From a virus: a stretch of 41,671 bases of DNA. Made by a program: the position numbers and the translations under genes. Below are positions 1,554 through 41,671 of this stretch, piece after piece. The notes beneath the pieces are model-generated. The model did no database searches and was not told the DNA's origin. It saw only the letters and a list, made by a program, of their open reading frames with translations. Position 1 is the stretch's first letter. Each line of letters starts with the position of its first letter. The stretch lies in the IMG/VR virus record IMGVR_UViG_3300009093_001233, positions 1-41,671 of that record; one strand, 5' to 3'.

Positions 1554-1835
1554 TCAATTTTTTGTCGGTAGCACCGTGGTAGCACTGGGTCTATTGAGGC
1601 GGTGCCAGTCGCGAGCCGCCTGGGTCTTTAGATCATCCAAATAACTGGCCAGCTTTCCTGCGTCCACCAGCCAGGGTGACTTCTGGGAGCCGGCCCGAAA
1701 TGTGGGTACGGGTAACGACTGTTTTCCTGCCCGTTTGGCCGCCTCCTCCGGAGCGAGTCCAAATAGGTGCGCGCAGCGTTCAAGCGGGATATGACCAGTA
1801 CCGTACTCGGCCATAAGAGCGAAAAAGGTGTTCAT
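1554..1835 (-). CDS. PrtN-family (pyocin activator-like) regulator
   Basis: A 93-aa protein beginning MNTFFALMAEYGTGHIPLE, the typical opening of the PrtN family. A helix-turn-helix-like middle ('LERCAHLFGLAPEEAAKRA') and 'SPWLVDAGKLASYLDDL' follow. In Pseudomonas, PrtN activates pyocin genes. Prophage relatives near integrase genes are of unproven function and might regulate int or excision. The start at 1835 was preferred over an upstream ATG (1883) because it has an AGGGGG ribosome site and overlaps the stop of the upstream gene as ATGA. It is the last gene of the left operon. In the circular phage it would be next to int across the attachment site. Confidence 0.8.
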   Translation of the reverse strand: MNTFFALMAEYGTGHIPLERCAHLFGLAPEEAAKRAGKQSLPVPTFRAGSQKSPWLVDAGKLASYLDDLKTQAARDWHRLNRPSATTVLPTKN

Positions 1836-2047
1836 GAATCCCCCTGGTGCGGCACGTCCAACCAGGTGCCGCGAACCTTCCATTGTTGCCTCATGTCTTC
1901 ACGCAGCTGATCGGCGGCCACCTGGCCGCGCTTTCCTGCTACGAGCTTGCATAACTCATCGACTTTCGCTCGGGTCGTATAGCCCTCTCTAATGCGTGCC
2001 CTCGCCTCAAAGACACGCCGTTGCTGTTCCTGGTCAGCCCGCGTCAT
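1832..2047 (-). CDS. Small hypothetical phage protein
   Basis: A 71-aa highly charged protein ('ADQEQQRRVFEARARIREGYTTRAKVDELCKLVAGKRG') predicted to be mostly helical. It resembles small proteins found with PrtN-type genes in xanthomonad prophages (possibly DUF7696; family recalled, not checked). It overlaps the PrtN gene by four bases (ATGA), so the two are probably translated together. There is no catalytic or metal-binding motif and no function is proposed. Confidence 0.65.
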   Translation of the reverse strand: MTRADQEQQRRVFEARARIREGYTTRAKVDELCKLVAGKRGQVAADQLREDMRQQWKVRGTWLDVPHQGDS

Positions 2048-3147: not shown

Positions 3148-5871
3148 TCACTCCCCCAAGCTCCACCCTCGGTGAGCCGCTTTTTTCGGCTGTTCGTTGG
3201 GGCCGCGCTGGAAAACCCAGCACTTCACGCTGCGGCCTTTGCTTTCGTCGGTTTCGTTGACCAGGTACAAGGCGCTATTGACGGTTTTCACGTCGACGAA
3301 CTTGCGCGTGCGTGATCCGCGCAGGTATTTCTTGAGGTCGGCCAGCACCGGCACCTGTAGGCGCATTTCGGCGGCCAGCTGCTGGAAGTGGTTGAGGTTG
3401 ACCGCGATTTCAGCTGGGTTGCGGCTGTGGTTGAGCCGCGGTGCCGCCGCATCCCAACTGTCGATGTATTCGAACCGCTCCCAGAATTCCTGCACCACCT
3501 TGTGATCGCTGCTGATCGTCTGCTGACGCTCCACCGCCATGGCGTGCACTTCGTCGTGTACGGCCTTCTTTTGCTCGGAAGTGAAGGGCAGGATGTCGGT
3601 CAAGGCCTTGAACACCGCAAGCAGCTGGCCATGGTTCTTGGCTATACGCGTCGTCTTGACGTGCGGGTTGGCCAATAGCTCCATTTCGTACGCACCAACG
3701 CTGGAGTTAATCGTCTCCATCGTCTTGGCCTCAGATCGCGTGGCGAGGATCAGGAAATAGCTAACAACGTCCACCGGCATCTGTTCCAGCTTGAGCGCCT
3801 TGGCGCGTGTTTCGGGCGTATGCGCGGAGCGGTCGACGGTGATGTGGCAGATACGCTGCATGATCGCCTCGGACGCCTCGACTCTGGCGTTCTGGCTGAT
3901 GACGACGGTGGCGCGAAAAGGTGGTTCACGCGTTTCGTTGCCGCTGTTCTTCACGCCGGTGGAACGTACGGCGCGGCCGTTGTACGCGGTTTTCAGCTCG
4001 TCCCAATCAAACTTTTTCTTGGCGTCGTCGCCTTCGCGGTCGCTCTCGATCAGCACAACAGGGAGGTTGGACACCTGGGCAAAATTGCGGGATCGCGCGG
4101 CGGGCGTGGACTTCGAGGGGTCGAAACCTTCGTAGTCGCGTCGGCCGACAAGCTTCCACAGAAATTCCACTAGCGTGGACTTGCCGGAGCCTGCCTCGCC
4201 GACCAGCTCGAAGAACGGGTACGACTTCTGTTTCTCGCGGATTTGCTCGGCAAAAATGGAACCGAACCAAAATGTCAGCGCAACAAGTCCTTTGGCACCG
4301 AAGCATGCCCACACCAGGTCAAGCCATTGGTCGCTATACGCGTTGCGATCGCGGCTGATGGTCAGTTGCGGCGAGTGCGTGAGGGTTTTGAGGTTGAGCC
4401 GGCCGATGTCGAAATAGTCTTCGTCATTCAGCTCATGCACCGAGCCTTCCTTCACAGCCAGGTCGCCGAAGACGTAGGTTTTATGGTCTTTGGCGTACCC
4501 GATGTAATCGATGGTCTGCACGGTTTTGATGCCGAATAGTTGAACCTTGATGATTCGATCCAGTTGTTGGCTCGTGCCAGTCCACACCGCGCCGGGTGCG
4601 ATGCTAAGAAGCCGCTTTTTGAACTCGCTCGCGCTGGAAAGGCTGCCGCCGGCGAAGGTGCTTTTGATCGTCGCGCCGGCGTGGGGAAACGACACGCGGT
4701 AGTAGTACCAACTCTCGTCGGTGACCGGATTGGCCTGGAAATACAGCGGATGCGGGTAGCAATTGGCGAGTTCGACGTTGTCGCAGGATTCGGCCAAAGC
4801 CTTTTCACGTAGTTGCGGGTCGTCCAGTTCTTCGTCCTCGCCCTTGTCCTGCAATTGCTGCATGGCCTTGTCGTAGGCTTTGAGATCGAGGTCGAACCAG
4901 TAGAGTCGATTGTCGTGTTCGTAGAAGAAGCTCGACATGCCGGTGCGTGCATACATCAAGCGCGCCTTTTCCATGTGAGTCGCCGCGATCAGCAGCGAAC
5001 CCTGATACAGGTATTCCTCGACGTCCTTCTGGGCGAGTCGGCCTGCAAGGTGTTGGTCGTTCCAGTCGACCTTGTCACGGCTACTCTGCGGGATAGTCGC
5101 CGCTTCACACTTCCACCCATCCTCCCTGGCACGCTTGACCCAACGAATCGTGTATTCACGCCCGGCCTTGTCACCATCGAGCGCCCACACCAGCGTGGGG
5201 CGCTTCTTGCCCTGGCAAAGATCGGCGAGTCGCTTGAGGTAGAGCGACGGGTAGTTATTGCAGGACATCGCCGACACGGCGCTGATGCTGTTATCGATCA
5301 GCGCGCATGAGTCGAAGATGCCCTCGACGATCCACAGCTTGTCCCTTTTGGTGACCGCATCGTCGTGAAGGGTTGGATGCACCCATGCATGACCCTGGTA
5401 GGACTTGCCAGCCGCAAACCGAGCTTTCATCTTGCCGAAGCGCTGCGGTCTGTCGATCAATCGTTCCCAGTAGGAGCCTCCTGGGAGCGGAAAACGCACA
5501 GTCGCACTGGTGTGCTGGGAATCGCTGTCGCGAAACAACTCCTCGCTGTAGGCACCGCGAAGCGTGGACACGTTGAGGCCGCGCGAGCTAGACAAATACG
5601 CATCAGCCGCTGCGTTGGGATCGCTCTCAGTGCGCTTGAATCGATCTGACCAGTTATCGAAGAGGTCGTCGTAGATATCCTTGATGCGGGACTCGTGACC
5701 ACAATTGTTCGTGCGGCCGCAACGCAATACCCAGGGCGCCTTCGCACTGGCATACAACTCATTCTTGCTGCAATCGGGGCACTTACCCCCGCGCAGCCAA
5801 TCCTTCTTTTCTTTGAAGCCATAGTGCTTGACCAGGCGCCGAGTGACTTCGTCGAGCAGTTGCGGGTTCAA
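3148..5871 (-). CDS. Zn-finger/Toprim primase-helicase replication protein
   Basis: A 907-aa replication protein. Residues 31-59 form a primase-type zinc finger (C31, C34, C51, C57 or H59). A Toprim domain follows, with 'IVEGIFD' (E183) and 'ALDGDKAGR' (D232, D234). A P-loop NTPase/helicase domain has Walker A GEAGSGKST (558-566) and a Walker B-like LPVVLIESD (603-611). The domain order is comparable to P4 alpha-type primase-helicases, which also bind iterons in their origin. I expect this protein to start theta replication, probably at the repeat array near 40.1 kb (inference). The TTG at 5871 was chosen: it overlaps the previous stop as TTGA and has an AGGGGGAA ribosome site. The frame stays open to a GTG at 5913. 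No P2 gpA gene is present. Confidence 0.88.
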   Translation of the reverse strand: MNPQLLDEVTRRLVKHYGFKEKKDWLRGGKCPDCSKNELYASAKAPWVLRCGRTNNCGHESRIKDIYDDLFDNWSDRFKRTESDPNAAADAYLSSSRGLNVSTLRGAYSEELFRDSDSQHTSATVRFPLPGGSYWERLIDRPQRFGKMKARFAAGKSYQGHAWVHPTLHDDAVTKRDKLWIVEGIFDSCALIDNSISAVSAMSCNNYPSLYLKRLADLCQGKKRPTLVWALDGDKAGREYTIRWVKRAREDGWKCEAATIPQSSRDKVDWNDQHLAGRLAQKDVEEYLYQGSLLIAATHMEKARLMYARTGMSSFFYEHDNRLYWFDLDLKAYDKAMQQLQDKGEDEELDDPQLREKALAESCDNVELANCYPHPLYFQANPVTDESWYYYRVSFPHAGATIKSTFAGGSLSSASEFKKRLLSIAPGAVWTGTSQQLDRIIKVQLFGIKTVQTIDYIGYAKDHKTYVFGDLAVKEGSVHELNDEDYFDIGRLNLKTLTHSPQLTISRDRNAYSDQWLDLVWACFGAKGLVALTFWFGSIFAEQIREKQKSYPFFELVGEAGSGKSTLVEFLWKLVGRRDYEGFDPSKSTPAARSRNFAQVSNLPVVLIESDREGDDAKKKFDWDELKTAYNGRAVRSTGVKNSGNETREPPFRATVVISQNARVEASEAIMQRICHITVDRSAHTPETRAKALKLEQMPVDVVSYFLILATRSEAKTMETINSSVGAYEMELLANPHVKTTRIAKNHGQLLAVFKALTDILPFTSEQKKAVHDEVHAMAVERQQTISSDHKVVQEFWERFEYIDSWDAAAPRLNHSRNPAEIAVNLNHFQQLAAEMRLQVPVLADLKKYLRGSRTRKFVDVKTVNSALYLVNETDESKGRSVKCWVFQRGPNEQPKKAAHRGWSLGE

Positions 5872-6422
5872 GCCTGTTCCCCCTGCAACTTCGCAGCGAG
5901 GCCTGCCGGCCACCAGCGAATGCCGCCCATGCCGCCGCGACCGTCAGCCAGAACCCGGCCATACGCGGTCGCTTGCACCAGATGGCGTCGCGTCGTCGTT
6001 ACCGACTGGCCGTATCGCTCAGCCACTTGGCGCGTGAACACGCCATAGAGGCAGGCTGACTTGTCGCCGTTGCGCAGGACAATGGCGCGTTCCAGCGATG
6101 CATGCAGGAAGCGCTTCTCGAATGCCTCACGAGCCAGGGTTTCGAGCGCGGGGACGACATTCAGATATTTAGGGCGCTTTTCCCACATAGATGCCGACGG
6201 GCCGCATATCGCACCTGGCTTGCGCATGACGCCACAGAAGGTGCCCAGGTATTCGGTGCGCTCATCGTCGTAGCGCGCGTCATCGTCATCCTGGTCGATA
6301 ACGCTTAGTGGGCGGCAGTCGGGTGGCAGCTTGCAAAGATGAAGGGGTTTGGTAGATGGGTCGCTGAACAGGTGGAGTGCGTGGTAGTGGATGCAGTTCT
6401 GGCAGCGTTGTAGCGCGCTCAT
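5868..6422 (-). CDS. Cys-rich hypothetical phage protein
   Basis: A 184-aa protein. The N-terminal half has scattered Cys/His ('RCQNCIHYHALHL', 'HLCKLPPDCRP', 'GTFCGVMRKPGAICGP') consistent with a zinc-binding fold. The C-terminal half has a helix-turn-helix-like stretch ('FTRQVAERYGQSVTTTRRHLVQATAYGRV'). Its stop overlaps the TTG of the primase-helicase and its ATG overlaps the stop of the upstream gene (ATGA), so all three are translationally coupled. That placement suggests a role tied to replication, for example a loader or regulator. This is inference; I do not recognise the family. Confidence 0.65.
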   Translation of the reverse strand: MSALQRCQNCIHYHALHLFSDPSTKPLHLCKLPPDCRPLSVIDQDDDDARYDDERTEYLGTFCGVMRKPGAICGPSASMWEKRPKYLNVVPALETLAREAFEKRFLHASLERAIVLRNGDKSACLYGVFTRQVAERYGQSVTTTRRHLVQATAYGRVLADGRGGMGGIRWWPAGLAAKLQGEQA

Positions 6423-8088: not shown

Positions 8089-8325
8089 CTACGCTTTCTT
8101 AAACGCCGCGCGGGCTTCGGCCCGTTGGCGACGGTAGTGGGGGAGGCCGACCAGGTAGACCTCGCGCAGCAGCGCGGATTCGGTCAAACCGGTTTCGGCC
8201 CTCAATTCCAAGAAGCCGGCCAGCTCGTCGGGCTGTAAACCCGTCCGCAGCCGCTTCGTTTTATCCGCACCACGCGGGGCATACGACCGCTTACCGCTGG
8301 ATGCTTCAGCCATGGACAGAGACAT
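8089..8325 (-). CDS. Ribbon-helix-helix protein divergent from CI
   Basis: A 78-aa protein. After a basic leader ('SSGKRSYAPRGADKTKRLR'), residues 'TGLQPDELAGFLELRAETGLTESALLREVYLVGL' fit an Arc/MetJ-type ribbon-helix-helix. The rest is a basic helix. It is divergent from the CI repressor, the position occupied by cox in P2, so it may be the Cox-equivalent lytic regulator or excision factor (inference from position). Two ATGs are possible (8325 and 8313) and neither has a clear ribosome site. Confidence 0.65.
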   Translation of the reverse strand: MSLSMAEASSGKRSYAPRGADKTKRLRTGLQPDELAGFLELRAETGLTESALLREVYLVGLPHYRRQRAEARAAFKKA

Positions 8326-8338
8326 GCTTGCCGCTCAA

Positions 8339-8410
8339 AATGTGGACCAGAGTCGAAATGTTATTCCACATAATGTGGAATCGCAAGGCCTTGTAGGGGA
8401 GAATTCCACA
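8339..8410. promoter_or_regulatory. CI/RHH divergent operator region
   Basis: A perfect palindrome with 9-base arms, ATTCCACATAATGTGGAAT, lies at 8363-8381 between the two divergent regulators. A partial half-site AATGTGGA is at 8339-8346. Another half-site, ATTCCACA (8403-8410), directly abuts the CI start codon. The spacing suggests a multi-site operator bound by CI or by the RHH protein. Occupancy of the 8403 half-site would give autoregulation of CI. Confidence 0.7.
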
Positions 8411-8833
8411 ATGCGTGAAGAATCGGCCCTGCAGCTGGACGCGGGCGAGATGATCGATCGGCTGCGCAAAGTGTTCGCGGTGCGAACCGACGCGCAGCTG
8501 GGCGAACACATCAGCGCATCAGTCAGCGCGATATCGAATTGGCGCACGCGTAATGCACCGCCCTACGCCGTGCTAGCGAGCGTCGCGAAGGCTAAGGGCG
8601 TATCACTAGACTGGTTGGTTTTCGGCGTAGGTGAGGATGCTGGTGACGTGTGCCCCGGCGTCGGCGAGAAGCCGACCCTCAAAACGGCTCAGGCAGCACG
8701 AATTACACAGTTTGTGGAATTCTGGGACCGGACCCGAACGGGCGAAGAGGTTATCTGGCTGGAGCAGCAGATTAAACGCAGCGTCCCCGAGTATCGGGAC
8801 TGGCTTCCTAGCGATAGCATGATGAACGAATAG
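8411..8833 (+). CDS. P2/186-type CI repressor
   Basis: A 140-aa protein. 'AGEMIDRLRKVFAVRTDAQLGEHISASVSAISNWRTRNAPPYAVLASVAKAKGVSLDWLVFG' (about residues 11-72) is a helix-turn-helix of the Phage_CI_repr type. 'ISNWRTRNAPP' is the recognition-helix end and 'LDWLVFG' is the usual closing motif. A short C-terminal part (about 65 aa) without a peptidase site suggests that it is not cleaved through RecA. ATG 8411 was chosen because of the AGGGGAGA ribosome site; an earlier in-frame ATG at 8312 would include the operator. It maintains lysogeny by silencing the divergent RHH/ogr operon. Confidence 0.85.
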   Translation: MREESALQLDAGEMIDRLRKVFAVRTDAQLGEHISASVSAISNWRTRNAPPYAVLASVAKAKGVSLDWLVFGVGEDAGDVCPGVGEKPTLKTAQAARITQFVEFWDRTRTGEEVIWLEQQIKRSVPEYRDWLPSDSMMNE

Positions 8834-8938: not shown

Positions 8939-9277
8939 CTAGCAGTTTCCCACCTCTTGGTCTTCAAAATAGGGGTCTCCCTCGAAATAAAAGTCATACT
9001 TCTTGCTGAGTCTGCGCAAATAATCCTCAGCTGCACTAACCGCCAATTCGAGAGCTTGAAGCGTGTCGCCACCTATTACCGTACGCCCTTCCTCCCTAAG
9101 ACCCTCAAAGCTTATTAAGCAACCTGCGGCACCCTCGGCAACAGGAACATCGACTGATCCTTCAGTCAGCAAAAATGGCTCGCTAATACAGACGGTAACT
9201 TCATTTATCGTCGAATCGCCTTTCAGCCGGTAGGACAGTTTTCGCGTCGCAATGACGCGCTGTGATGCCTGATTCAT
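8939..9277 (-). CDS. Probable RHS immunity protein (DUF6968-like)
   Basis: A 112-aa soluble protein ('MNQASQRVIATRKLSYRL...VCISEPFLL...GCLISFEGLREEGRTVIGGDTLQALELAVSAAEDYLRRLSKKY'). The beta-rich first half followed by 'GGDTLQALELAV' recalls DUF6968 (recalled, not searched). The ATG at 9277 overlaps the stop of the RHS gene (ATGA) and has a GGAG ribosome site, so synthesis is coupled to the RHS protein. A small protein gene fused translationally to the 3' end of a polymorphic-toxin gene is normally the cognate immunity gene. The role is therefore inferred from position. An alternative start at 9292 has no better support. Confidence 0.65.
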   Translation of the reverse strand: MNQASQRVIATRKLSYRLKGDSTINEVTVCISEPFLLTEGSVDVPVAEGAAGCLISFEGLREEGRTVIGGDTLQALELAVSAAEDYLRRLSKKYDFYFEGDPYFEDQEVGNC

Positions 9278-12200
9278 TGTTGCTCCAAACATTGTTTATA
9301 GGTCTCTTCAGCATACCCGTAGCACTTGAGCATGGCTTTACCACGCATCGACTTGCATCTGCTTTGCATAGATTTCAGAAGCTCGTCGCAGTTCGATTTG
9401 TGATCAACCTCGTCTTCCGGGCACTGGAGCGGAATTCGTCGTTTAATGAAAGGAAATTTCACGATATTGTCATTGTCGTGATTTTCGTCCTCCGGGCCAC
9501 CTGCTGCTCGTGGCCAAGAGGCCAATACAACGCCACACACTACTGGATTCGACGCGCATGCCCGGACAACTGTGCCCAATCCTATCTCCTCACCGGGGTC
9601 AAACTCAGGGTCGTTTGCGGGCGGCCCATAGTTTGGCAATGTACCTGGATTAGTAGAAGGCACGGGAATACGTGCTGGCACTGAAGGAGCTGTGCCCGGA
9701 CTTGGCGTTCCGACCGGACTTGGCGCGCCACCCGCAAGCCCAAGAGGGTCGACGTTATTTAAAGGATTCGCGTTCACATAGCCGTAGGTGCTTAAGCTCG
9801 CCTGGAGGCCCATTGGGTCGCTTTCCAGATATCGTCCCAAGGACGGCACATAGTCGCGGTTGACGTTGTACACCACTCCGCTTTCAGCGTCGTAATACTG
9901 TCCCGGGAACCGAAGGTTATAGGTAAGGCTTCCTGTCGGTTGTTGCTCACCGAGTGGGTTGGCCTGGTACGCCCATTGCCATACAGGCGTCCCGGTTGCG
10001 TTGGTGATCACTCGCGGTGTACCCATGCCGTCGGCCATGACAAAGTTGATGCTTGCCACACCTCCGCTAACGTCAACGGCGGCCACAGGTAGGGAGCCGA
10101 ACCAGATGTAGTCTCGGTTTGAAGTGCCGTATTCGCCAAGGAGCTGGCTCGCCTCGTCGTAGGCAAAGCGTTCACTACCCTGAGGTGTTACGACCGTCTT
10201 GCTGACGCGCTCGCCGAGCGCGTTATAGGCATAGGTCGCCACTGTCTGCTGATTCGCCTGCACCAGGCTCAGACGATTCCGATTGTCGTAGCCAAAGCCA
10301 AACGTTTGGCCACCAGACGCGCTACCGATCGTATTGCCGTTAGGATCGTAGCTTCGCGCGGCGCTACCAATCGTGGTCAACCAGTGGGTGCCCGTTTGAT
10401 AACCATACGTGCCTGTGGCCAGCCCTCCCACGCTCGTTTTGCTTAGCCGGTCCCCGGTTCCATTGTACGTGTAGCTCTCGATTGCGGTGGCTCCATCCGT
10501 CACAGACGTAAGCCGGTACAGAGGATCGTAGCTGTAACTCTCAATCGCTGGATTAGCTCCGGCGGCGTTGCCCAAGGCGTTGATGTTGCCCGTCGCATCA
10601 CGCGCGAAATGCAAGTTCAGCGACGGACTAGTGACGTCACTGACGTTGTAGTTCGCATCGTAAGTGCGGGTTATCGTTTGACCGTTACCCAAGGTGTAGC
10701 CGGTCACAGGTCCGAACGGTAGATAGGTCACTGCGCTAACCACGGTCTGGGTTGCTCCACCCAGGGGCGCCACCTGAACCAGCGTCAGTTGACCCAGCGC
10801 ATTGTAAGTGTCAGTCACGACAGTGCCATCCGGCTCTGTGAGGGTACTCAGTCGATTGGCAGCGGTATACGTGTAACTGATAGCGTCGGTGGCGAGCGAG
10901 GTGATCTGCTTCTTCTGGATGACATTGCCGCGTGTGTCATAGCAATACACGGTGGTCACCGCGCTCTCGATGATGCGAGTTAACCGGCCAATGGGTGCAG
11001 AGCTTGAGCAACCGGTAACAGCGTTGGACTCATCGTAGTCATAGGTGATATTCGATGATGCGTCTGGAAACGTGGTCGCAGTTGCACGATTCAACGCATC
11101 GTAGGTTGAGGTGCTCGTGATGTTCTTGGCATCAGTGTGCGTTAGACGATTGCCCGCCGCATCGTAGGTGTCGCCGCTAGTACCCGTGTCTGGACTTTGG
11201 AGCGCCGTACGGTTGCCCAAACCATCATAGGTGTATTGCGTGACTATGTTGCTGGGGTCGGTAAAGGCAGTTAATTGATCGAGGGCGTCATAGGCCAGCT
11301 TGGCGGTGGTGTTCTGCGTCGTGCCGCTGCCGTTGTAGTTGTCGATGCTGGTGGCCACGCGATTCAGCGCATCTACGGACTGCTTATGTTGGATGCCCAG
11401 CCCATCGGTGAAGAGCACCAGATTGCCGTTGTTGTCATAGTTACCCGAGTTGCCCGCATTGAATACCGTATGGTTCAAGCCATCAACGATGGTCGTTAGT
11501 CGACCCAGCGTGTTGAAGTGGCGTGTCAGCGAGCGAACAGGAGTGGTGCTGCCGGCCGGATAGATATTCTCCGCAGTACGGTTGCCAGCCACGTCCAACG
11601 TGTATTGGATCGAGTTGCCTGCGCCGTCAGTGATCTTAGTCAGGCGATGTGCGTCATCATAAGCATAAGTAAAGACCACGCCATCCGGATCCGTTACTGT
11701 CTCGATAGCGCCGAACGGCGTATACGTAAAGGTGGTCGTCGCTCCACCGACACTGTGTGATGCAAGCCATCCGCGCGGCTTGTACGTCAGCGTGGTGACG
11801 ATGCCATTGGGGTCCTGGACACTAGTTGGACGCCCGCTGCCATCGTAGGACAAATATGTGGTGACGTGCCCAAGCGCATCCGTAACCGTCTTAACGTCAC
11901 CGTGCTTAGCTGCGGCAGAATCGGTCAGATAGTAAGTGTAGCTGGTGAGGTTGGCGCGAGGGTCCTGGTCACTCAGCTTAAGACCAACTACGGGGCATTG
12001 TGTGCCGTCCACAGTGTCGCAGTAGGTGGACAGCGTTCTGCGCACACCCGCCGGTGGTGTGCTAGTGATAGAACAGACGTAGCTGGCTGCAGCGGGTATT
12101 GCCGGGTCCATATCGCAGCTGGCGAGAGCCTGCCCTCTGGTGTTGTAGACCCAGCCGCTCAGCGCAACGGTGGTACCGCTGGCGTTGAGAATGGTCCTCG

Positions 12201-13797
12201 TCAGCGGAACGCGGAGCGTTGAATCCCACGTGGTATTGGTCGTGCGCTGCGCAGTCGTATTCTTGGCTTCGATGCGTTGCGTTTCGAGTCCCACGGCGTT
12301 GTGCGTCACATTGGTGACGTTGCCGTTGAAATCGGTATAGCTGCTCGGGTAACCGTTGACGTCGTAGCCGATGGATGACCACGGTTGATTACATTCGTTG
12401 CCACATATCTCGTTGCTACCGTGATTGTTGTAGACGCCTTGGGCGCTACTTACATTCAAGTTGTAAAAACCGCCAAGCGGCGTGTTCGTACCGTCATTGG
12501 CACTGTATTTGTCGATGTTGTTCGCGAACCAAGTCGATGTCGCGTGCCCTTGGGAGTTGTAGCTAGTGGACTCGTAACGCGTGCCCTTCTCGTCAATGAC
12601 GCCAGTGAGTGCGGTTTGCACTTGGCTGGTAAAGACGTAAAGAGAAGCCTCGTTATACACGTACTGGCGCGAATGAGAGTCCGGGTAGGTTACCGATGCC
12701 AAACGCCCATTGCTGTCGTAGGCATAGCCTAGATTGCCGCCGTCGGGCAATGCGACGTTGATCAGCCGCGCAGAGGCGTCGTAGCTAAAACCCAGCGCTC
12801 GACCATTCGGATCGGTGACGGTTAGCAACAGGCCCGGCTTTGGCGCCTGAGTTGCCGGCGTGCTGGCCGTGCTGTATTGGAGCGTTGTGACCGCGCCCGA
12901 TGCGGTGGTTATCGAGAGCAGAAGACCATTGGCGGAGTAATGCTCGGTCTGTCGTGATGCGGCGGTAAAGGCCGTATAGCCGGTCGGAACGCCATTGGCA
13001 TCATCTTGTTCCGTCAGCGTACTGGGATTGTTCGGTGACGCCTGCCATAGGCCGTTGACATGCTGAAAAGTCGGTCGGCTTCCGTCAGGCCGGTCGAACT
13101 CAATGGTGCCGATGGCCCCGGTCCCTGTGGTTCCCGCCGCCGGTATGAACTCCAACGACCGGTCGAATGTATGTCGCCACTGCGGTCCAAGCTCAGCGGT
13201 ATTGGCGGTGATGTCGCTGTTGTAGAAGCGTCGGAACGTCAGTTGCCCTGGTGATCGGTAATCGGTCTCCTGTTGGAATCGGTTGCCTGTCTGCACGTTG
13301 TAGGGGTCGGCGGCATCGAGCGAGCCAAGCACGTTATTCCCGGTCGAACCGTCACCGCTGCTTCCTCGGGCATGTGAATCTTTCTTCGGAGAACCCGTGC
13401 CATCTGTAATGCATACCTTGCATTCGCCGATATTTTTTCGCGTGTCAAAGGGAGAATCGGTGGCCCAGACGGTGGTCGAGCCCTCGGAAGGGTTGCACAC
13501 CGTATCGTTGGGTAGGCAAGCAACGACAGTTGCCACAGCCTGGCTTGATCCGTAGTTAACGTGCAAAACACAGGTGGGACAATAAGCCTGCAGGCCAGCG
13601 GCTGTGGCCTGTATGGCTGCGCTTTCGTTTCCCCATTCAACCGGGATGCTTGTATTCGTGTAGAAGCTCCCGTTGTTATAGGGCGGACCATAGGTGCTTT
13701 GGGCATTAGCATTTATTGCTATTGCAAAGAGAAGAGCCCATAACCCCAACAAGCCAAAACCTCGCGCGAAGCGCGCACCAACATTTGCAACCGACAT
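9274..13797 (-). CDS. RHS-repeat protein, secreted, probable toxin
   Basis: A 1507-aa protein. Residues 1-33 are a signal peptide (basic start, 'LLGLWALLFAIAINANAQ'). A domain with several Cys (about 70-130) precedes 'DPYNVQTGNRFQQETDYRSPGQLTFRRFYNSD', the usual entry to RHS/YD repeats, which run to about residue 1270. The RHS core ends in 'YDAESGVVYNVNRDYVPSLGRY', 'SDPMGLQ' and 'NNVDPLGLAGG'. The last 150 residues vary: a Pro-rich linker, then a Cys-containing helical tail ('CPEDEVDHKSNCDELLKS...CYGYAEETYKQCLEQQ'). That is the expected position of a released toxin, but I recognise no nuclease motif. It has an AGGGGA/AAGGG ribosome site. It sits between CI and D, so it is phage-borne cargo and not a virion part. 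Confidence 0.9.
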   Translation of the reverse strand: MSVANVGARFARGFGLLGLWALLFAIAINANAQSTYGPPYNNGSFYTNTSIPVEWGNESAAIQATAAGLQAYCPTCVLHVNYGSSQAVATVVACLPNDTVCNPSEGSTTVWATDSPFDTRKNIGECKVCITDGTGSPKKDSHARGSSGDGSTGNNVLGSLDAADPYNVQTGNRFQQETDYRSPGQLTFRRFYNSDITANTAELGPQWRHTFDRSLEFIPAAGTTGTGAIGTIEFDRPDGSRPTFQHVNGLWQASPNNPSTLTEQDDANGVPTGYTAFTAASRQTEHYSANGLLLSITTASGAVTTLQYSTASTPATQAPKPGLLLTVTDPNGRALGFSYDASARLINVALPDGGNLGYAYDSNGRLASVTYPDSHSRQYVYNEASLYVFTSQVQTALTGVIDEKGTRYESTSYNSQGHATSTWFANNIDKYSANDGTNTPLGGFYNLNVSSAQGVYNNHGSNEICGNECNQPWSSIGYDVNGYPSSYTDFNGNVTNVTHNAVGLETQRIEAKNTTAQRTTNTTWDSTLRVPLTRTILNASGTTVALSGWVYNTRGQALASCDMDPAIPAAASYVCSITSTPPAGVRRTLSTYCDTVDGTQCPVVGLKLSDQDPRANLTSYTYYLTDSAAAKHGDVKTVTDALGHVTTYLSYDGSGRPTSVQDPNGIVTTLTYKPRGWLASHSVGGATTTFTYTPFGAIETVTDPDGVVFTYAYDDAHRLTKITDGAGNSIQYTLDVAGNRTAENIYPAGSTTPVRSLTRHFNTLGRLTTIVDGLNHTVFNAGNSGNYDNNGNLVLFTDGLGIQHKQSVDALNRVATSIDNYNGSGTTQNTTAKLAYDALDQLTAFTDPSNIVTQYTYDGLGNRTALQSPDTGTSGDTYDAAGNRLTHTDAKNITSTSTYDALNRATATTFPDASSNITYDYDESNAVTGCSSSAPIGRLTRIIESAVTTVYCYDTRGNVIQKKQITSLATDAISYTYTAANRLSTLTEPDGTVVTDTYNALGQLTLVQVAPLGGATQTVVSAVTYLPFGPVTGYTLGNGQTITRTYDANYNVSDVTSPSLNLHFARDATGNINALGNAAGANPAIESYSYDPLYRLTSVTDGATAIESYTYNGTGDRLSKTSVGGLATGTYGYQTGTHWLTTIGSAARSYDPNGNTIGSASGGQTFGFGYDNRNRLSLVQANQQTVATYAYNALGERVSKTVVTPQGSERFAYDEASQLLGEYGTSNRDYIWFGSLPVAAVDVSGGVASINFVMADGMGTPRVITNATGTPVWQWAYQANPLGEQQPTGSLTYNLRFPGQYYDAESGVVYNVNRDYVPSLGRYLESDPMGLQASLSTYGYVNANPLNNVDPLGLAGGAPSPVGTPSPGTAPSVPARIPVPSTNPGTLPNYGPPANDPEFDPGEEIGLGTVVRACASNPVVCGVVLASWPRAAGGPEDENHDNDNIVKFPFIKRRIPLQCPEDEVDHKSNCDELLKSMQSRCKSMRGKAMLKCYGYAEETYKQCLEQQ

Positions 13798-36336: not shown

Positions 36337-36939
36337 TCAGAGCGTGTAGCTCACCTTCGTTCCGGTCACGGTGATATGCCCCTTCGCTCTCAGAAGCTCT
36401 ACTAAGTTGGCTACGTCGTTGTCTGTCAACTGTTTGGAGAAATGCGCATGGATGGTACTGAAAAGGGTCTTCATGGTGCGCGGCCTCGCTGCACCTCTCT
36501 GGCGAAGGTTGGCCAAAACTTGGCTTAACCTTTCCTCGGCGTTGCCGCCCTTCGCAACTTGGCTTGCTTTGAGTAGAGGTATCTCGCCAATGTCCTTGGA
36601 TCTGCATGCAAGGACCTTTTGGGCCTTCAAATGCTTGATTAAGGGGTCGAAACCCGAATCCTTGCTGATGATGTGGAAAAAAGCATTCGCGTCCTGCGCG
36701 GCGAGTAGGCCTATGTAGTAAGCAATGTGGAAGTCCAGAGCATTGGGGCCGTTTCCGGCTATCTTGATGTAACGGCCATGCTCCCCGAGAACCTGCATTG
36801 CCTCTGCCACCTCGAACGAAACCTTTGTCTGGTTGGCTCCCACGAACAAAAACACTTTAAAAAGGTGCTCTCCCCTCAATGGCTCCAGGGTCTTCGGTTG
36901 CACGTTTTCATAGTCGATGAGGACGTAGTTGGTCTTCAT
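36337..36939 (-). CDS. NYN/PIN-like ribonuclease-fold protein
   Basis: A 200-aa protein. 'NYVLIDYENVQPKTLEPLRGEHLFKVFLFVGANQTKV' opens the NYN/PIN fold (D9, E11, N12). 'KIAGNGPNALDFHIAYYIGLLAA' and 'FFHIISKDSGFDPLIKHLKAQKV' hold the other acidic residues of the metal site. The C-terminal 60 residues are helical ('VANLVELLRAKGHITVTGTKVSYTL', winged-helix-like). Related proteins are widespread in proteobacteria and are thought to be RNases. Here it is non-structural cargo between the portal and cos, antisense to Q. A defence or toxin role is possible but unproven. ATG 36939 was preferred over an open frame to 37002. Confidence 0.78.
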   Translation of the reverse strand: MKTNYVLIDYENVQPKTLEPLRGEHLFKVFLFVGANQTKVSFEVAEAMQVLGEHGRYIKIAGNGPNALDFHIAYYIGLLAAQDANAFFHIISKDSGFDPLIKHLKAQKVLACRSKDIGEIPLLKASQVAKGGNAEERLSQVLANLRQRGAARPRTMKTLFSTIHAHFSKQLTDNDVANLVELLRAKGHITVTGTKVSYTL

Positions 36940-37080
36940 GGCTCCCCAGTTTGTCAAATGCAGACCTGTATAAACCTGCCAGGAACGTCCGCTGGTTCGC
37001 AATAGCTGGGAGTCCCGCCGGTATCGGGTCGATTGAACCTGGTTCTATGTCCAACTTGATCCGGCCCCGTGCTTGGCTGG

Positions 37081-37428
37081 TCAGGGCATATCGGACCAGC
37101 GTACTCGCTCCGCAATGGCAGGGGGTAAAGGGTTGTCGCGGAACCTGTTGCGTTCCCCGAGCGATCGCCAAGCCTTCCGCAGGTCTGCTATGTCGATGTC
37201 CTCGCGTGGCATGGCAACCCAGCCTTCACCGTTGCACATAGCACACGATGCGAAGCGTTCACCTCGGCAGTGCGGGCACAGCGATAGATGCCACCAGTCG
37301 GGCGCCATGAATACTCCGACGTGGCAGTGAAAACAGGTAATGCCTGCATGCATGGCCATGAAAGCAAGCCGGCCGCAGTTGTCGCAGATGCCGGACGGTT
37401 GTCTTGGTTGATCGATGTATCGGCCCAT
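37081..37428 (-). CDS. Zinc-ribbon hypothetical phage protein
   Basis: A 115-aa protein with eight cysteines in CxxC-like pairs: 'GICDNCGRL', 'GITCFHCHVGVF', 'LSLCPHCRG' and 'ASCAMCNGEGW'. This is a rubredoxin/DnaJ-type zinc-binding pattern. The remainder is helical and basic ('DLRKAWRSLGERNRFRDNPLPPAIAERVRW'). It ends 141 bases before the NYN gene on the same strand, so the two may be co-transcribed. The best guess is a nucleic-acid-binding or regulatory protein. Confidence 0.65.
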   Translation of the reverse strand: MGRYIDQPRQPSGICDNCGRLAFMAMHAGITCFHCHVGVFMAPDWWHLSLCPHCRGERFASCAMCNGEGWVAMPREDIDIADLRKAWRSLGERNRFRDNPLPPAIAERVRWSDMP

Positions 37429-37616
37429 GCAGGGCAGGGTACGGCGCCCAAGTCTCAGGCCGCGCGATTCCCTATTGGGCGACGCTTGGCGCTGCGCGTT
37501 GCTTCGTCGCCAGGCGGAGGCGTGCCTGCGCGGTGGTGCGTGCAGGCACGCGTGTACGGCGCCCAGGGCTGGTCAAAAAATAAGCAGGCATGGGCTGTCC
37601 CGCATCGGCGCGCGCG

Positions 37617-37635
37617 GTCGTCCCCCCTCCTCGCC
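37617..37635 (-). other. cos: Candidate cos site (P2-like cohesive end)
   Basis: On the minus strand the sequence is GGCGAGGAGGGGGGACGAC. The P2/186 cohesive end is GGCGAGGCGGGGAAAGCAC, which has the same first seven bases, the same G-run and the same length. The site lies in the gene-free stretch 37429-37742. Reading from GGCGAGG leads toward the 3' end of the portal gene, exactly as in P2. The cut positions are inferred by analogy. Confidence 0.7.
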
Positions 37636-37742
37636 TGCGCGCTTCTCCCCCCCACCTTTGATGCAGGTGCCAACCTGCAGCCAGGCTAGGCGCCGTGGGG
37701 GCTAAACTTAGATTTATGGATTGGCTGGAGTGATGCAAATTG

Positions 37743-38933
37743 ATGCAGCGAATAGATATTTATTGGATAGACGCCGAGGCCAGGGTTTCGCTGAACGCTC
37801 CGTGCCACTGCGGCACCGGTAAGCGATACCGTAAGTGCTGTGCCGAGAAGGATCTAATTCATATTCCGAAGCTGATGCGGAAGGCGCAAGCTGCACTACA
37901 GCGATCAAAGCAACGCCAGCGTGAGTTCGAGCAGCTTTATGGTCACATTCGTATGCCGGAGTCAGCATGGTTGGATGGACACCTCATGTTCGCAATGGGT
38001 GGCAAAATTCTGAGGCAGCGAGAAAGTGGTCCGCGCGACTTTGCTACCGTTGTACACGACATAGGCCTGATGTTTTTCGGTGAAGAGTATCTCGAGCAAC
38101 AAGAGCAGCTGCCATTTGAACAGCGGCATGTGCCTATTCAGTGGATGCATGCATGGTGCGAGGAACACAACAAAGCACTCGTTAGCGATCCAGATTCACC
38201 TGAGGCCTTTCAGATCGGCGCGGGCGCTGCTTGGCAACGCTTTGCGTTCGATGTTTACACAATTTCTGATAATTCTGAACTTCGGCGCGAGCTGAGAAGG
38301 AAGCTGCTTGACCCCTCCGACTTTCAGGGGGCTAGGCATGAACTCAGGGTAGCCGCATGGTGGATTGCCGCCGGCTTCGATATCGCCTACGAAAACGAAA
38401 AGAATGTAGAAAAAAAGCACCCAGAGTTCGTCGCGAAGTGTCGTTTTACAGGCACAAAAGTTGCTGTTGAGGCGAAAAGTAAGCACCGTACCGGGGTGCA
38501 AGGTTTCAATAGTGGCAATCCTGCAAATGCTAGGAAGGCGCTTGTTCGTGAGCTGCTTGTTGCTGCTCAAGAGAAGCATGTTGAAGTGCCACTTTACGCT
38601 TTTCTCGATCTAAATCTGCCGCCGCCGGACGATGATATAGAGCGGGACAAGTGGCTGAGCGAGATCGAGCGAACCGTCGAGGACATGTACGCAGAAGGGC
38701 TTGGCGAAGCGAGTCCGCTCAACGCGGTGTTTTTTTCTAATGATCCATCTCACTATCTTTTGCGTGATCGAATTACATCAAGCGCGCACAATCTCTGGTT
38801 TATGCGCCACACCTATGCAACCCCTCGGTATCCCCACCCAGACGTAGACATCGTCGGTAGGATCGAAAAGGCACATCAGATGCGTTGCGCGCCGCCGGCG
38901 CACTTCTGGAACGATGAGGAAGAAGAAGTTTAA
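37743..38933 (+). CDS. SEC-C plus PD-(D/E)XK-like nuclease, cargo
   Basis: A 396-aa protein. Residues 20-33 (PCHCGTGKRYRKCC) are a SEC-C zinc motif. A coiled, charged linker follows ('KLMRKAQAALQRSKQRQREFEQLYG'). The C-terminal half has 'GARHELRVAAWWIAAGFDIAY' (E200), then P227-E228 and V-E243-A-K245 ('KVAVEAKSKH'). That spacing fits a PD-(D/E)XK endonuclease core with Glu replacing Asp at the second site. GC is lower than in the structural genes. It lies beyond cos, where P2 has its exclusion genes, and converges on the HEPN-like gene with stops that overlap (TTTAAA). Predicted anti-phage or DNA-degrading role: inference. A TTG directly before the ATG is also in frame. Confidence 0.75.
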   Translation: MQRIDIYWIDAEARVSLNAPCHCGTGKRYRKCCAEKDLIHIPKLMRKAQAALQRSKQRQREFEQLYGHIRMPESAWLDGHLMFAMGGKILRQRESGPRDFATVVHDIGLMFFGEEYLEQQEQLPFEQRHVPIQWMHAWCEEHNKALVSDPDSPEAFQIGAGAAWQRFAFDVYTISDNSELRRELRRKLLDPSDFQGARHELRVAAWWIAAGFDIAYENEKNVEKKHPEFVAKCRFTGTKVAVEAKSKHRTGVQGFNSGNPANARKALVRELLVAAQEKHVEVPLYAFLDLNLPPPDDDIERDKWLSEIERTVEDMYAEGLGEASPLNAVFFSNDPSHYLLRDRITSSAHNLWFMRHTYATPRYPHPDVDIVGRIEKAHQMRCAPPAHFWNDEEEEV

Positions 38934-39868
38934 AACGGTGGACTGTTGCTCGCTTCTTCAATTTTTTCGTTGACTTTGGTCGCGAACTGAATAACGCGAT
39001 CGGCGAGTTCGTAAACATCGTCGTCGGTAACAATGACAGCATTTCCGTCGATATCCACTCCAAGTCTATGGACTATGTCATGACGTTTTTTTATATCCGT
39101 TTCAAAGGTATTTAAACCAATTGATACGTCTAGCCCGTGCTTAAACATGGGTCCTACCTGATCTGCGCGGTGCCATACAATATTTCGCATATATGCCATC
39201 ACTAACTCTGGCAGTTGATCTTGGTAACTATAGATTTGGGAAAGCTTGATCTTTGTATCTCGAAAAAAAGGATGATTCTTAATAATTCGCTCGACAAATT
39301 CAGGCTTCTCGGTTAACCAGAATTTCATTGTTTCCCACAGGAATGTCTCTAGCGCCCCGATAATTCCGCTGTACGCCAAATTTCGAGCCACTTCTCGTGC
39401 GGCATCGTTGCCCGTAAGATTGAGTATTTCTTTTAATTTGTCGATCGTGGCCTCTAGCTTTTGTGTCGGCTCGTTACGATCTTCGATTTCAAGGTCGTAA
39501 TCACCTAGGTACATCAGCCGCGTAGGGGCCCACTCAAAAATCCCATCGCTTTGTACGGAGTCGGCTGCTTTTTCGATGGTATCAAAATCAACATACTCAT
39601 GAAATCTGGTTTCGATTTCTTCCATAGCGTCATACGGTCCACCATGGATCCATATGTAACCGCCCTCTGACGACATGTAAGGCGTTTCTTCGGCGGGGTC
39701 GCAAAATCGACTCAGAAACCAGTGAATCATGGCATCTATTTTGTTTTGTTCGTCGGCCTGACGAAGCCAATCGTTGTTTATCTCGCTTATTTGGCCCTCC
39801 TCTAAGGCACCCTCTGGCAGGTCTGGCAGCCCATTCGCATCGTTGAGCAACTCCTTAACGCGTCCCAT
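38930..39868 (-). CDS. HEPN-like protein, cargo
   Basis: A 312-aa protein with AT-rich codon use unlike the phage core. The acidic N-terminal half ('LPDLPEGALEEGQISEINNDWLRQADEQNKIDAMIHWFLSRFCDPAEETPY') is unrecognised. The C-terminal half is a helical bundle ('GIIGALETFLWETMKFWLT...', 'ELVMAYMRNIVWHRADQVGPMFK') ending in 'KKRHDIVHRLG'. That is an R-x4-H motif (R262, H267) as in HEPN ribonucleases of toxin and defence systems. ATG 39868 has a GGGGGAG ribosome site; a GTG at 39907 is open. Its promoter region borders the repeat array. It may be a toxin or an abortive-infection effector, but activity is not shown. Confidence 0.68.
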   Translation of the reverse strand: MGRVKELLNDANGLPDLPEGALEEGQISEINNDWLRQADEQNKIDAMIHWFLSRFCDPAEETPYMSSEGGYIWIHGGPYDAMEEIETRFHEYVDFDTIEKAADSVQSDGIFEWAPTRLMYLGDYDLEIEDRNEPTQKLEATIDKLKEILNLTGNDAAREVARNLAYSGIIGALETFLWETMKFWLTEKPEFVERIIKNHPFFRDTKIKLSQIYSYQDQLPELVMAYMRNIVWHRADQVGPMFKHGLDVSIGLNTFETDIKKRHDIVHRLGVDIDGNAVIVTDDDVYELADRVIQFATKVNEKIEEASNSPPF

Positions 39869-39962
39869 CTCTATCTCCCCCTGTTCGTGGCATCGATTGT
39901 GGGCCACAAAGAGAGTCGACGCGCGGGGCCGAACTTCCGTGGCCTGTTTTGTAGCGGGGAAA

Positions 39963-40228
39963 GGTAATTTTGGTAATCAGGAAAAGGTAATCAGGCCTAA
40001 GTAGTTGACTGGAAAGGCCTAAACAGATGATTGGAAAAGGTAATCCAAAGGTAATCCAAAAGGTAATCTGCCCCTAAGTGTCTGATTTTTATAGATCGTC
40101 AGATTACCTTTTGAAAGGGTAACTAAATTACCTCAGATTACCCGCAGATTACCTTTCGCCTCTCTCGCTAAGTCTTTGGCTGTCTTGAGAAATTCGTCAA
40201 TTTCTCGGATTGGATTACCAAAATTACC
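39963..40228. repeat. Iteron-like array, candidate replication origin
   Basis: Twelve copies of GGTAAT(C) or its complement lie in 266 bp. Forward copies start at 39963, 39972, 39986, 40039, 40050 and 40062. Reverse copies ([G/A]ATTACC) start at 40102, 40126, 40136, 40147, 40213 and 40222. Many neighbours are 10-12 bases apart, one helical turn. The two orientations face each other across an AT-rich centre (40081-40095). A 22-bp imperfect repeat beginning AGGCCTAA (39993 and 40015) is superimposed. The organisation is that of an iteron origin (compare P4 ori/crr) or a large operator. Confidence 0.72.
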
Positions 40229-40296
40229 TCTTTCCGACGATGCCAACCATTGGAGAAGCCTTATATATGGGCAGAGAACCTTTCCGGGCCGCACGG

Positions 40297-40509
40297 CTAC
40301 GCTGCCTGTGCCGGAATGCAGCGGACTAGCTCGTCCAGCCGTGCGCGCACGCCGGCGGAATAGGTTTCCAGCAAGGTCTGCACGTGGTCGGGGTCGATCA
40401 CGCCGGCGTGCAGGCCAGCAGTGAGCGCCGCAGCGAGGCTGTCCAGCGCGGACACTTGGTCACGCACGCGTTGGATCGAAAGTGGCAAGGGAAGGGGAGG
40501 TTTGTTCAT
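40297..40509 (-). CDS. Small helical phage protein next to int
   Basis: A 70-aa helical protein ('MNKPPLPLPLSIQRVRDQVSALDSLAAALTAGLHAGVIDPDHVQTLLETYSAGVRARLDELVRC'). The motif 'AGVIDPDHVQTLLE' parallels 'AGMLDSDGAYELLQ' in the 88-aa protein at 6676-6942, suggesting distant paralogues. The ATG at 40509 is assumed, with a weak GGAA upstream; the frame remains open to a TTG at 40581. It follows int on the same strand and lies beside the repeat array. Confidence 0.55.
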   Translation of the reverse strand: MNKPPLPLPLSIQRVRDQVSALDSLAAALTAGLHAGVIDPDHVQTLLETYSAGVRARLDELVRCIPAQAA

Positions 40510-40618
40510 CAAAGCGGTTCCATGTGCTACTCGGTGTTTCGCCAAGTCGCTGGCCAACTCCTGCACGCGATCGGGAGGCAAGCGCCGTCGACGCCGGCAT
40601 CGCGTTGCAGGTGATCGT

Positions 40619-41671
40619 CTATCGCTCGACCACGTCTTCGGGTTTGAGGTGCGTGTAACGCTTCAGCGTTGCCCATGAGTCGTGCAGGGTGAATTGAGCC
40701 ACTTCTTGGATGGAGTACCCACGCTCGAAAAGCCGCGACGTCGCCTCATGGCGTAGGTCGTGAAAGCGCAGGTTTTTGATCCCTAGCAATTTGCAGGCCC
40801 GCTCCCACCGTGCCCCGATAGAACTCGGGTTGTAGGGAAAAACAAACTCTCCGACCTGGTTCTGGCGATCGATGACCGCCCACGCTTCCGCCGTCATGCG
40901 AAAGCTGCGGCGATTTCCGACTTTTTGCGTCGGGTGCTTGACGTCATCGAGCCAGCCGATGCCCTTCTCGCGATCGAGGTCTACCCATTTGAGGCGCGTT
41001 ATTTCCTCTTGCCGGCGCGCGCTGGCGATCGCGAAATCCATCACGTCGAGCATCTGGATTTGAGAGCGGCCGTCCTGCTTTCGGAACCGCTCCGTCAGCA
41101 GCGTGTGTTCGCTCGTGGTGATACGACGATCTCTGTAGCGCGGCTTTGCGATCAGCTTGCGTTGCCGCAGCTCGTGCCGGGCGTCGGCAAGGGCTTGCAA
41201 GTCGGCGGGAACGCCCAGGGTCGGGCGCGCGGACCGCAAAGCCTGGCCGAACCAGACCAGGTCATTGCCGGCGGTTGCCGGGCCGGCACCCTCGGCACGG
41301 CGGGTCTCGACGTGCTCGATGTAGTCGGCGGCCGCCAGTGCATAGGCCAGCTTGGCCAAGATCGGGTAACGGTCCTCGGGCCGGCTTGGCAGCGGTCGAT
41401 CCTCGCCATCCTTGCCTTCGAGTCGACGCAGATCCGATTCTTTGCTGATGCCCCACTTGGCCGGGCCGCCGATTTCCTTGCGGTACCATTGCAGTACCTC
41501 AAGTAGTGTGTAGCGAGCCCCTTCCAGGACGCCTTTGGCGCGTAGCTTGTCGAGTTCGGCTTCACGCCGACGTAGCCATTCGGCGGCCAGCGCGCGGCGG
41601 GTGAAGGTCTCCGATTCGGAGTGGATGACCTTGCCGGCGCGTTTGAGACGAATTTGCGCGGTATAGCGCAT
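40619..41671 (-). CDS. int: Tyrosine integrase (5' end probably cut by window)
   Basis: 350 residues of a phage-type tyrosine recombinase. The N-terminal arm-binding domain begins 'RYTAQIRLKRAGKVIHSESETFTRRALAAEWLRRREAEL', and a SAM-like core follows. The catalytic domain has 'ARRQEEITRLKWVDL' (R220), 'RFHDLRHEATSRLFERG' (H304, R307), H330, and 'WATLKRYTHL' (Y339, the nucleophile). Relatives usually carry about 10-17 residues (an 'xxITxRKxxDGS'-like lead) before this point. The ATG at the window edge is therefore probably internal and the gene continues to the right. It catalyses integration and excision; the attachment site should lie close by, to the right. Confidence 0.9.
   Translation of the reverse strand: MRYTAQIRLKRAGKVIHSESETFTRRALAAEWLRRREAELDKLRAKGVLEGARYTLLEVLQWYRKEIGGPAKWGISKESDLRRLEGKDGEDRPLPSRPEDRYPILAKLAYALAAADYIEHVETRRAEGAGPATAGNDLVWFGQALRSARPTLGVPADLQALADARHELRQRKLIAKPRYRDRRITTSEHTLLTERFRKQDGRSQIQMLDVMDFAIASARRQEEITRLKWVDLDREKGIGWLDDVKHPTQKVGNRRSFRMTAEAWAVIDRQNQVGEFVFPYNPSSIGARWERACKLLGIKNLRFHDLRHEATSRLFERGYSIQEVAQFTLHDSWATLKRYTHLKPEDVVER

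Follow-up and report, generated by a model that had tools for sequence, protein, structure and literature searches.

The window, meaning the whole stretch of DNA that was analysed, is a 41671-base IMG/VR virus record and holds a P2-like provirus with the P2-like layout, in which the terminase P and portal Q genes lie on the plus strand and the capsid and tail genes on the minus strand. Close to one end, between the gene of an HEPN-like protein (a weak match to PF18735, phrog_17908), which starts at 39907 on the minus strand, and a tyrosine integrase gene, it contains an array of short facing repeats. The features of the record referred to below are the following.

1554-1883, minus strand: excisionase (phrog_1300), at the opposite end of the record from the integrase gene
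3148-5913, minus strand: primase-helicase (phrog_1139), the proposed initiator, with zinc ribbon, Toprim, P-loop ATPase and C-terminal winged-helix-like domain
3199-3516, minus strand: C-terminal domain of the same protein (aa about 800-905), the proposed iteron-binding domain
8312-8833: CI-type repressor gene
37609-37635, minus strand: predicted cos, GGCGAGGAGGGGGGACGACCGCGCGCG, separated from the array by about 2.3 kb and common to the related loci L002, L003 and L006
39955-40236, no strand: whole facing iteron array (282 bp), the proposed replication origin, so named from its repeats and the same architecture in relatives
39955-39978, plus strand: outer 24-bp inverted repeat, left arm
39963-39992, plus strand: left outer iterons, GGTAATT at 39963, GGTAATC at 39972 and 39986
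39993-40036, plus strand: 22-bp direct repeat, two copies
40039-40068, plus strand: left inner iterons, GGTAATC at 40039, 40050 and 40062
40102-40153, minus strand: right inner iterons at 40102, 40126 (GGTAATT), 40136 and 40147
40213-40228, minus strand: right outer iterons at 40213 and 40222 (GGTAATT)
40213-40236, minus strand: outer inverted repeat, right arm, containing the end pattern TTACCRAAATTACCTYTTTCC
40297-40581, minus strand: ORF of 94 aa between the array and the integrase gene
40619-41671, minus strand: tyrosine integrase, a neighbour outside the origin, with its start codon at the record edge

The array itself is free of genes, as described, and the 94-aa ORF is located between it and the integrase gene. 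Family and phage searches gave no match for this ORF, but members of the same family adjoin several arrays (4337-4618 in L006; 1188-1418 and 2138-2367 in L002, which appears to carry two copies). As a candidate for the protein binding the array the ORF was rejected, since it is absent next to the array of L003. When the DNA at 39-41.7 kb was compared with that of named phages, the only match obtained was to one integrase.

On the other side, between the array and portal Q (36337-39907), genes for a PIN7/NYN nuclease, a SEC-C protein and the HEPN-like protein form what looks like a defence-gene hotspot, and the predicted cos falls inside this cargo. Elsewhere in the record, flanked by tail gene D and the early genes, lies the gene of a 1507-aa RHS-repeat protein (PF05593, DUF6531; 9274-13797, minus strand), possibly polymorphic-toxin cargo. 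The DUF6348 and GFA genes at 1-1379, left of the excisionase gene, are probably of host origin and attL is therefore expected at about 1.4-1.55 kb.

When analysing the composition of the array, twelve GGTAAT(C/T) heptamers were found at 39963-40228, nine of them exact GGTAATC and three GGTAATT, with six plus strand copies to the left and six minus strand copies to the right, so that the arms face inwards, as originally predicted. The start-to-start distances are 9, 14, 53, 11, 12, 40, 24, 10, 11, 66 and 9 bp. That such a frequency lies far above chance was confirmed by 2000 shuffles of the 401-bp region keeping the dinucleotides, which gave a mean of 0.14 heptamers and a maximum of 3, and a 7-mer cluster of at least five copies appeared in none of 200 shuffles. 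A clustered-word scan of the window revealed no second word cluster above background, in agreement with the claim that this array is the only one of its kind there. The excess of short repeats is as expected of an iteron-type origin, and the two iteron sets flank a central region as in the pri-rep-ori modules of PICIs. The two ends are linked by the inverted repeat (88%), and the 22-bp repeat that had been noted superimposed on the heptamers was recovered as two direct copies (39993-40014 and 40015-40036, 82% alike), a repeat absent from those arrays of relatives that were inspected as sequence. The centre (40070-40100, ~62% AT), predicted to be AT-rich, is so when compared with the GC-rich genome but not when compared with the rest of the array, in which it forms no AT peak.

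A similar array of 210-295 bp is located between int and cos/Q in many relatives, built on words that vary (GGTAATC, GGTAAC, CTGTAAG, AGTTAT, TGTGATG, CTGTCAG, TGTTCCGG and TGGAAGG), so that on the point of conservation, raised as a check in the original prediction, the architecture proves widely kept while the word itself changes. Facing arrays of comparable size were seen in the window, in L002, L003, L006, L048, L049, L051, L052, L056, L097, L141 and L142 and in the phages Dobby, Sirocco, D14A, PACL, Smp131, Halomonas 4908, ESSI2, PfPro, 2F_1, phi3 and PaBSM. L006, found with the exact iteron pattern, has a homologue of the 94-aa ORF on one side of its array and cargo, cos, Q and P on the other, and int is absent from the surrounding 4.3 kb. 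L002 and L003, found via integrase similarity (62% and 58%), carry CTGTAAG and AGTTAT arrays in the same place as that of the window. The named phages were found via primase similarity and their words are GGTAATT (Dobby, Sirocco, D14A and PACL), GGTAAC (Smp131), GGTAA (Halomonas 4908), TGTGATG (ESSI2_ev239), CTGTCAG (PfPro), GGTTAC (2F_1), TGTTCCGG (phi3) and TGGAAGG (PaBSM), with a weaker array in Mae-JY29. Distinct AT-rich stretches are present in the arrays of ESSI2, L142 and Dobby. The same scan also recovers the annotated ori and crr repeats of P4. It gave no clear array in KS14, which has a CHC2 primase and a separate replication initiation protein. In Bacillus phage ZY1 no array was seen, and the expected stretch may be missing since the record starts and ends at gene boundaries.

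A 21-base pattern taken from the outer end of the array was searched in viral records and genomes and matched 101 viral and 37 genome stretches, mainly of Pseudomonas. Both ends were recognised in 80 arrays, 75 of which measure 287-289 bp from end to end, and plus strand iterons predominate at the left end and minus strand iterons at the right. The end pattern occurs in 39 viral records of 30 kb or more, of which 38 contain phrog_1139, a number that amounts to far fewer independent events because the records are closely related, and one contains Phage_GPA, together with phrog_1139; the 39th record (G106) begins at the portal gene, lacks the early region and has neither. As a baseline, 50 relatives chosen by portal Q contain Phage_GPA in 27 cases and phrog_1139 in eight (one a fragment only), and Fisher's test between the two sets gives p = 5e-12, a figure that overstates the evidence because the records are related. 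By the clustered-word scan, in which true arrays mostly score above 10 and the annotated Int sites of 186 score 7.9, no array above background was found in the gpA phages P2, Fels-2, K139, HP1 and 186 or in the loci of 27 gpA records, none of which scores above 8.9. Conversely, the phrog_1139 records G026, G029, G066, G009 and G015 (short) are without a convincing array, that of G063 is marginal and those of G011 and G012 are visible by eye but statistically weak; the missing arrays could be due to trimming of the records at gene boundaries. Across these sequence comparisons the array is associated with phrog_1139, the Toprim primase-helicase family, rather than with gpA.

To see which protein the repeat word follows, closely related phages were compared. 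Phi3 and PaBSM have portals that are 98% and small terminases that are 88% identical but differ in word (TGTTCCGG versus TGGAAGG), as do G106 and PfPro with portals 87% identical (GGTAAT versus CTGTCAG). The integrases of Dobby and PfPro are 70% identical and those of the window and L002 62%, with GGTAATT versus CTGTCAG and GGTAATC versus CTGTAAG, respectively, while the window and the Halomonas phage both use GGTAA and have integrases without a BLAST match to each other. The word thus follows neither integrase, terminase nor portal. In the tree it largely tracks the descent of the primase, and for this reason the co-variation agrees with the primase being the binder but is no proof alone.

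The primase-helicase itself (phrog_1139, 1151 bits) is 921 aa long from the first possible start and not 907 aa as first given. Its C terminus (aa about 800-905) shows the conserved pattern LKxxLxxSRxxKF...VNSA...CWVF and is predicted to fold as strand-helix-helix-strand-strand, winged-helix-like, with a pLDDT of 78; a fold search with this part alone gave no significant PDB match. Foldseek searches with the full model matched SCCmec Cch (5dgk), DnaG primases and SaPIbov1 Rep (8tch) with E values of 1e-7 to 2e-4, the matches to Rep and Cch being significant by E but of low TM-score, with the helicase core unmodelled (pLDDT about 30 at aa 570-694). Sequence searches against solved structures gave DnaG primases only, and weakly. 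The protein had been called P4-alpha-like, which stands for the Toprim part, where the profiles match (hhalign 80%, aa 162-326, Toprim only), and weakly for the ATPase, where a weak DUF5906 match is common to both. It does not stand otherwise, as Zn_Ribbon_Prim, D5_N and Pox_D5 are present in P4 alpha but absent in the window protein and 15 relatives, and in fold the protein is more like a fusion of DnaG with SaPIbov1 Rep or SCCmec Cch. In phi3 and PaBSM the array is located directly 3' of the primase gene, starting within about 150 bp, but in the window the array is at 40 kb and the gene at 3-6 kb, so that the proposed origin is not immediately 3' of the proposed initiator gene. In Smp131 the primase (L010, 25406-28115) is annotated short and tblastn finds two pieces, which suggests a frameshift near the C terminus or a sequencing error.

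An iteron origin read by the primase-helicase, as originally proposed, best fits the comparative tests because of the co-occurrence with the primase and not gpA, the changes of word independent of int, portal and terminase, the separation from Int arms and cos, the position of the phi3 and PaBSM arrays directly 3' of the primase gene and the predicted winged-helix C terminus. The array very probably serves a P2-like prophage as an iteron origin of replication, of the type found in PICI pri-rep-ori modules, with the iterons presumably bound by the primase. In the proposed mechanism the C-terminal winged-helix-like domain of the 921-aa protein would bind the GGTAATC iterons on both arms, the facing arms setting two groups of protein head to head, and the P-loop ATPase part would melt the DNA between or beside them and load as helicase rings departing in opposite directions, while the DnaG-like part would prime. 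Replication would then be of the theta type and not by the gpA rolling circle used by P2; that forks depart both ways is a guess from the symmetry.

Four other functions were considered, of which the one that survives best, though improbable, is a cis element for replication or copy control that is not itself the start point, comparable to crr of P4 or incompatibility iterons and bound by the same protein. P4 does have the same repeats in both of its arrays of this kind, ori and crr, and the window array shows no obvious central melting region, but only one array per genome was found, which leaves no second site as candidate origin.

The proximity to cos (161-184 bp in L006, Dobby, Halomonas and Smp131, where no cargo intervenes) might instead indicate a packaging site, with cosB-like repeats bound by the small terminase. 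This is very unlikely, since cargo parts array and cos by 2.3-3.9 kb in the window, L002 and L003, so that the distance is not fixed but ranges from 161 bp to 3.9 kb, and since in phi3 and PaBSM the array adjoins the primase. Nor does the array word depend on the terminase, near-identical portals and terminases being found with different words, and P2 and 186 package from an annotated cos without any such array.

Less likely still is an attP, with integrase arm-type sites flanking a core. The array adjoins int and is about as long as phage attP regions, which contain repeated arm sites, but the array word does not follow Int, L006 has its array away from any int, and the window array is whole although the provirus record has int at one end and the excisionase at the other. 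In addition, array and Int arm sites do not coincide in ESSI2, Dobby and Smp131. ESSI2_ev239 has both, with TGTGGAC sites, the word of the annotated Int arms of P2, beside int and a CATCACA array 1.4 kb further, and Dobby also has a second, int-adjacent array besides its GGTAATT array. These second arrays (TGTGGAC at L011 26742-26959 in ESSI2_ev239; ACGTAAC at L009 37075-37152 and 1-206 in Dobby) are probably integrase arm sites. Both cos and attP have been described in Smp131, the attP downstream of int near 30.7 kb (PMC3931495), and its array at 33.05-33.33 kb is neither.

Least credible of all is that a repressor or ParB-like protein binds the array as its operator or partition site. The position upstream of the HEPN-like gene start and a ParA-like gene beside the array of L006 speak for it, but the neighbouring genes vary between phages while the array persists, the window proteins scanned by family include no ParA and the association is with the primase. 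The attP, cos/cosB, operator and partition functions were all tested and rejected.

The textbook replication of P2-like phages is by gpA and rolling circle. The present comparison suggests that many Peduoviridae, including phages of Pseudomonas, Stenotrophomonas and Halomonas, use an iteron origin together with a satellite-like primase-helicase; no published description of an array origin for P2-like phages was found in a literature search conducted mostly outside subscription journals. More tentatively, complete temperate phages of P2-like type may include a large clade that has swapped gpA rolling-circle replication for a PICI-like pri-rep-ori module with a rigid double-array origin of ~288 bp, a platform for loading two rings, in which the iteron word changes along with the initiator C terminus, giving rise to many mutually incompatible replication specificities. 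The proposed origin offers 282 bp of defined sequence to test in a plasmid, the array a marker for typing such phages, and the motif/initiator pairs a natural series in which to study the evolution of initiator specificity.

When compared with known systems, the gpA phages P2, 186 and HP1 share the virion genes and the overall body plan, but there gpA nicks an origin inside gene A and no iteron array is present. The origins of iteron plasmids are alike in having repeats bound by a cognate initiator, a binding proposed here, but differ in that the repeats described here are short (7-10 bp) and arranged in two facing sets and that the initiator is itself a primase-helicase. P4 alpha is likewise a single protein with primase, ATPase and origin-binding activity (the binding again being proposed here), and P4 has short repeats in both orientations, with attP, crr and the alpha gene adjacent, but it has ori and crr where a single array is found here, and the sequence relation is limited to Toprim and the weak DUF5906 match.

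The closest resemblance is to the pri-rep-ori modules of PICIs and SaPIs (SaPIbov1; E. coli EcCICFT073). Gram-negative PICI origins consist of two iteron sets flanking an AT-rich region, an organisation known from no other bacterial replicon, and pri-rep-ori was functional by plasmid maintenance (PMC6092414), while SaPI Rep reads its origin via the C-terminal domain (PMC7581432). Shared with these are an initiator helicase (here putative) with a C-terminal origin-reading domain (here predicted), two sets of iterons on either side of a possible melting region, the Foldseek match to SaPIbov1 Rep and, in phi3 and PaBSM, the array 3' of the gene. The primases of SaPIbov1 and SaPI5 are of AEP type (PMC7581432), whereas here a DnaG/Toprim-type primase is fused to the helicase, the module is carried by complete P2-like phages and in most of them the array lies kilobases from the gene. 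The window element is PICI-like in how it would work as an origin and is not a PICI module, because it belongs to a complete phage, has a DnaG-type primase and has its proposed origin far from the gene.
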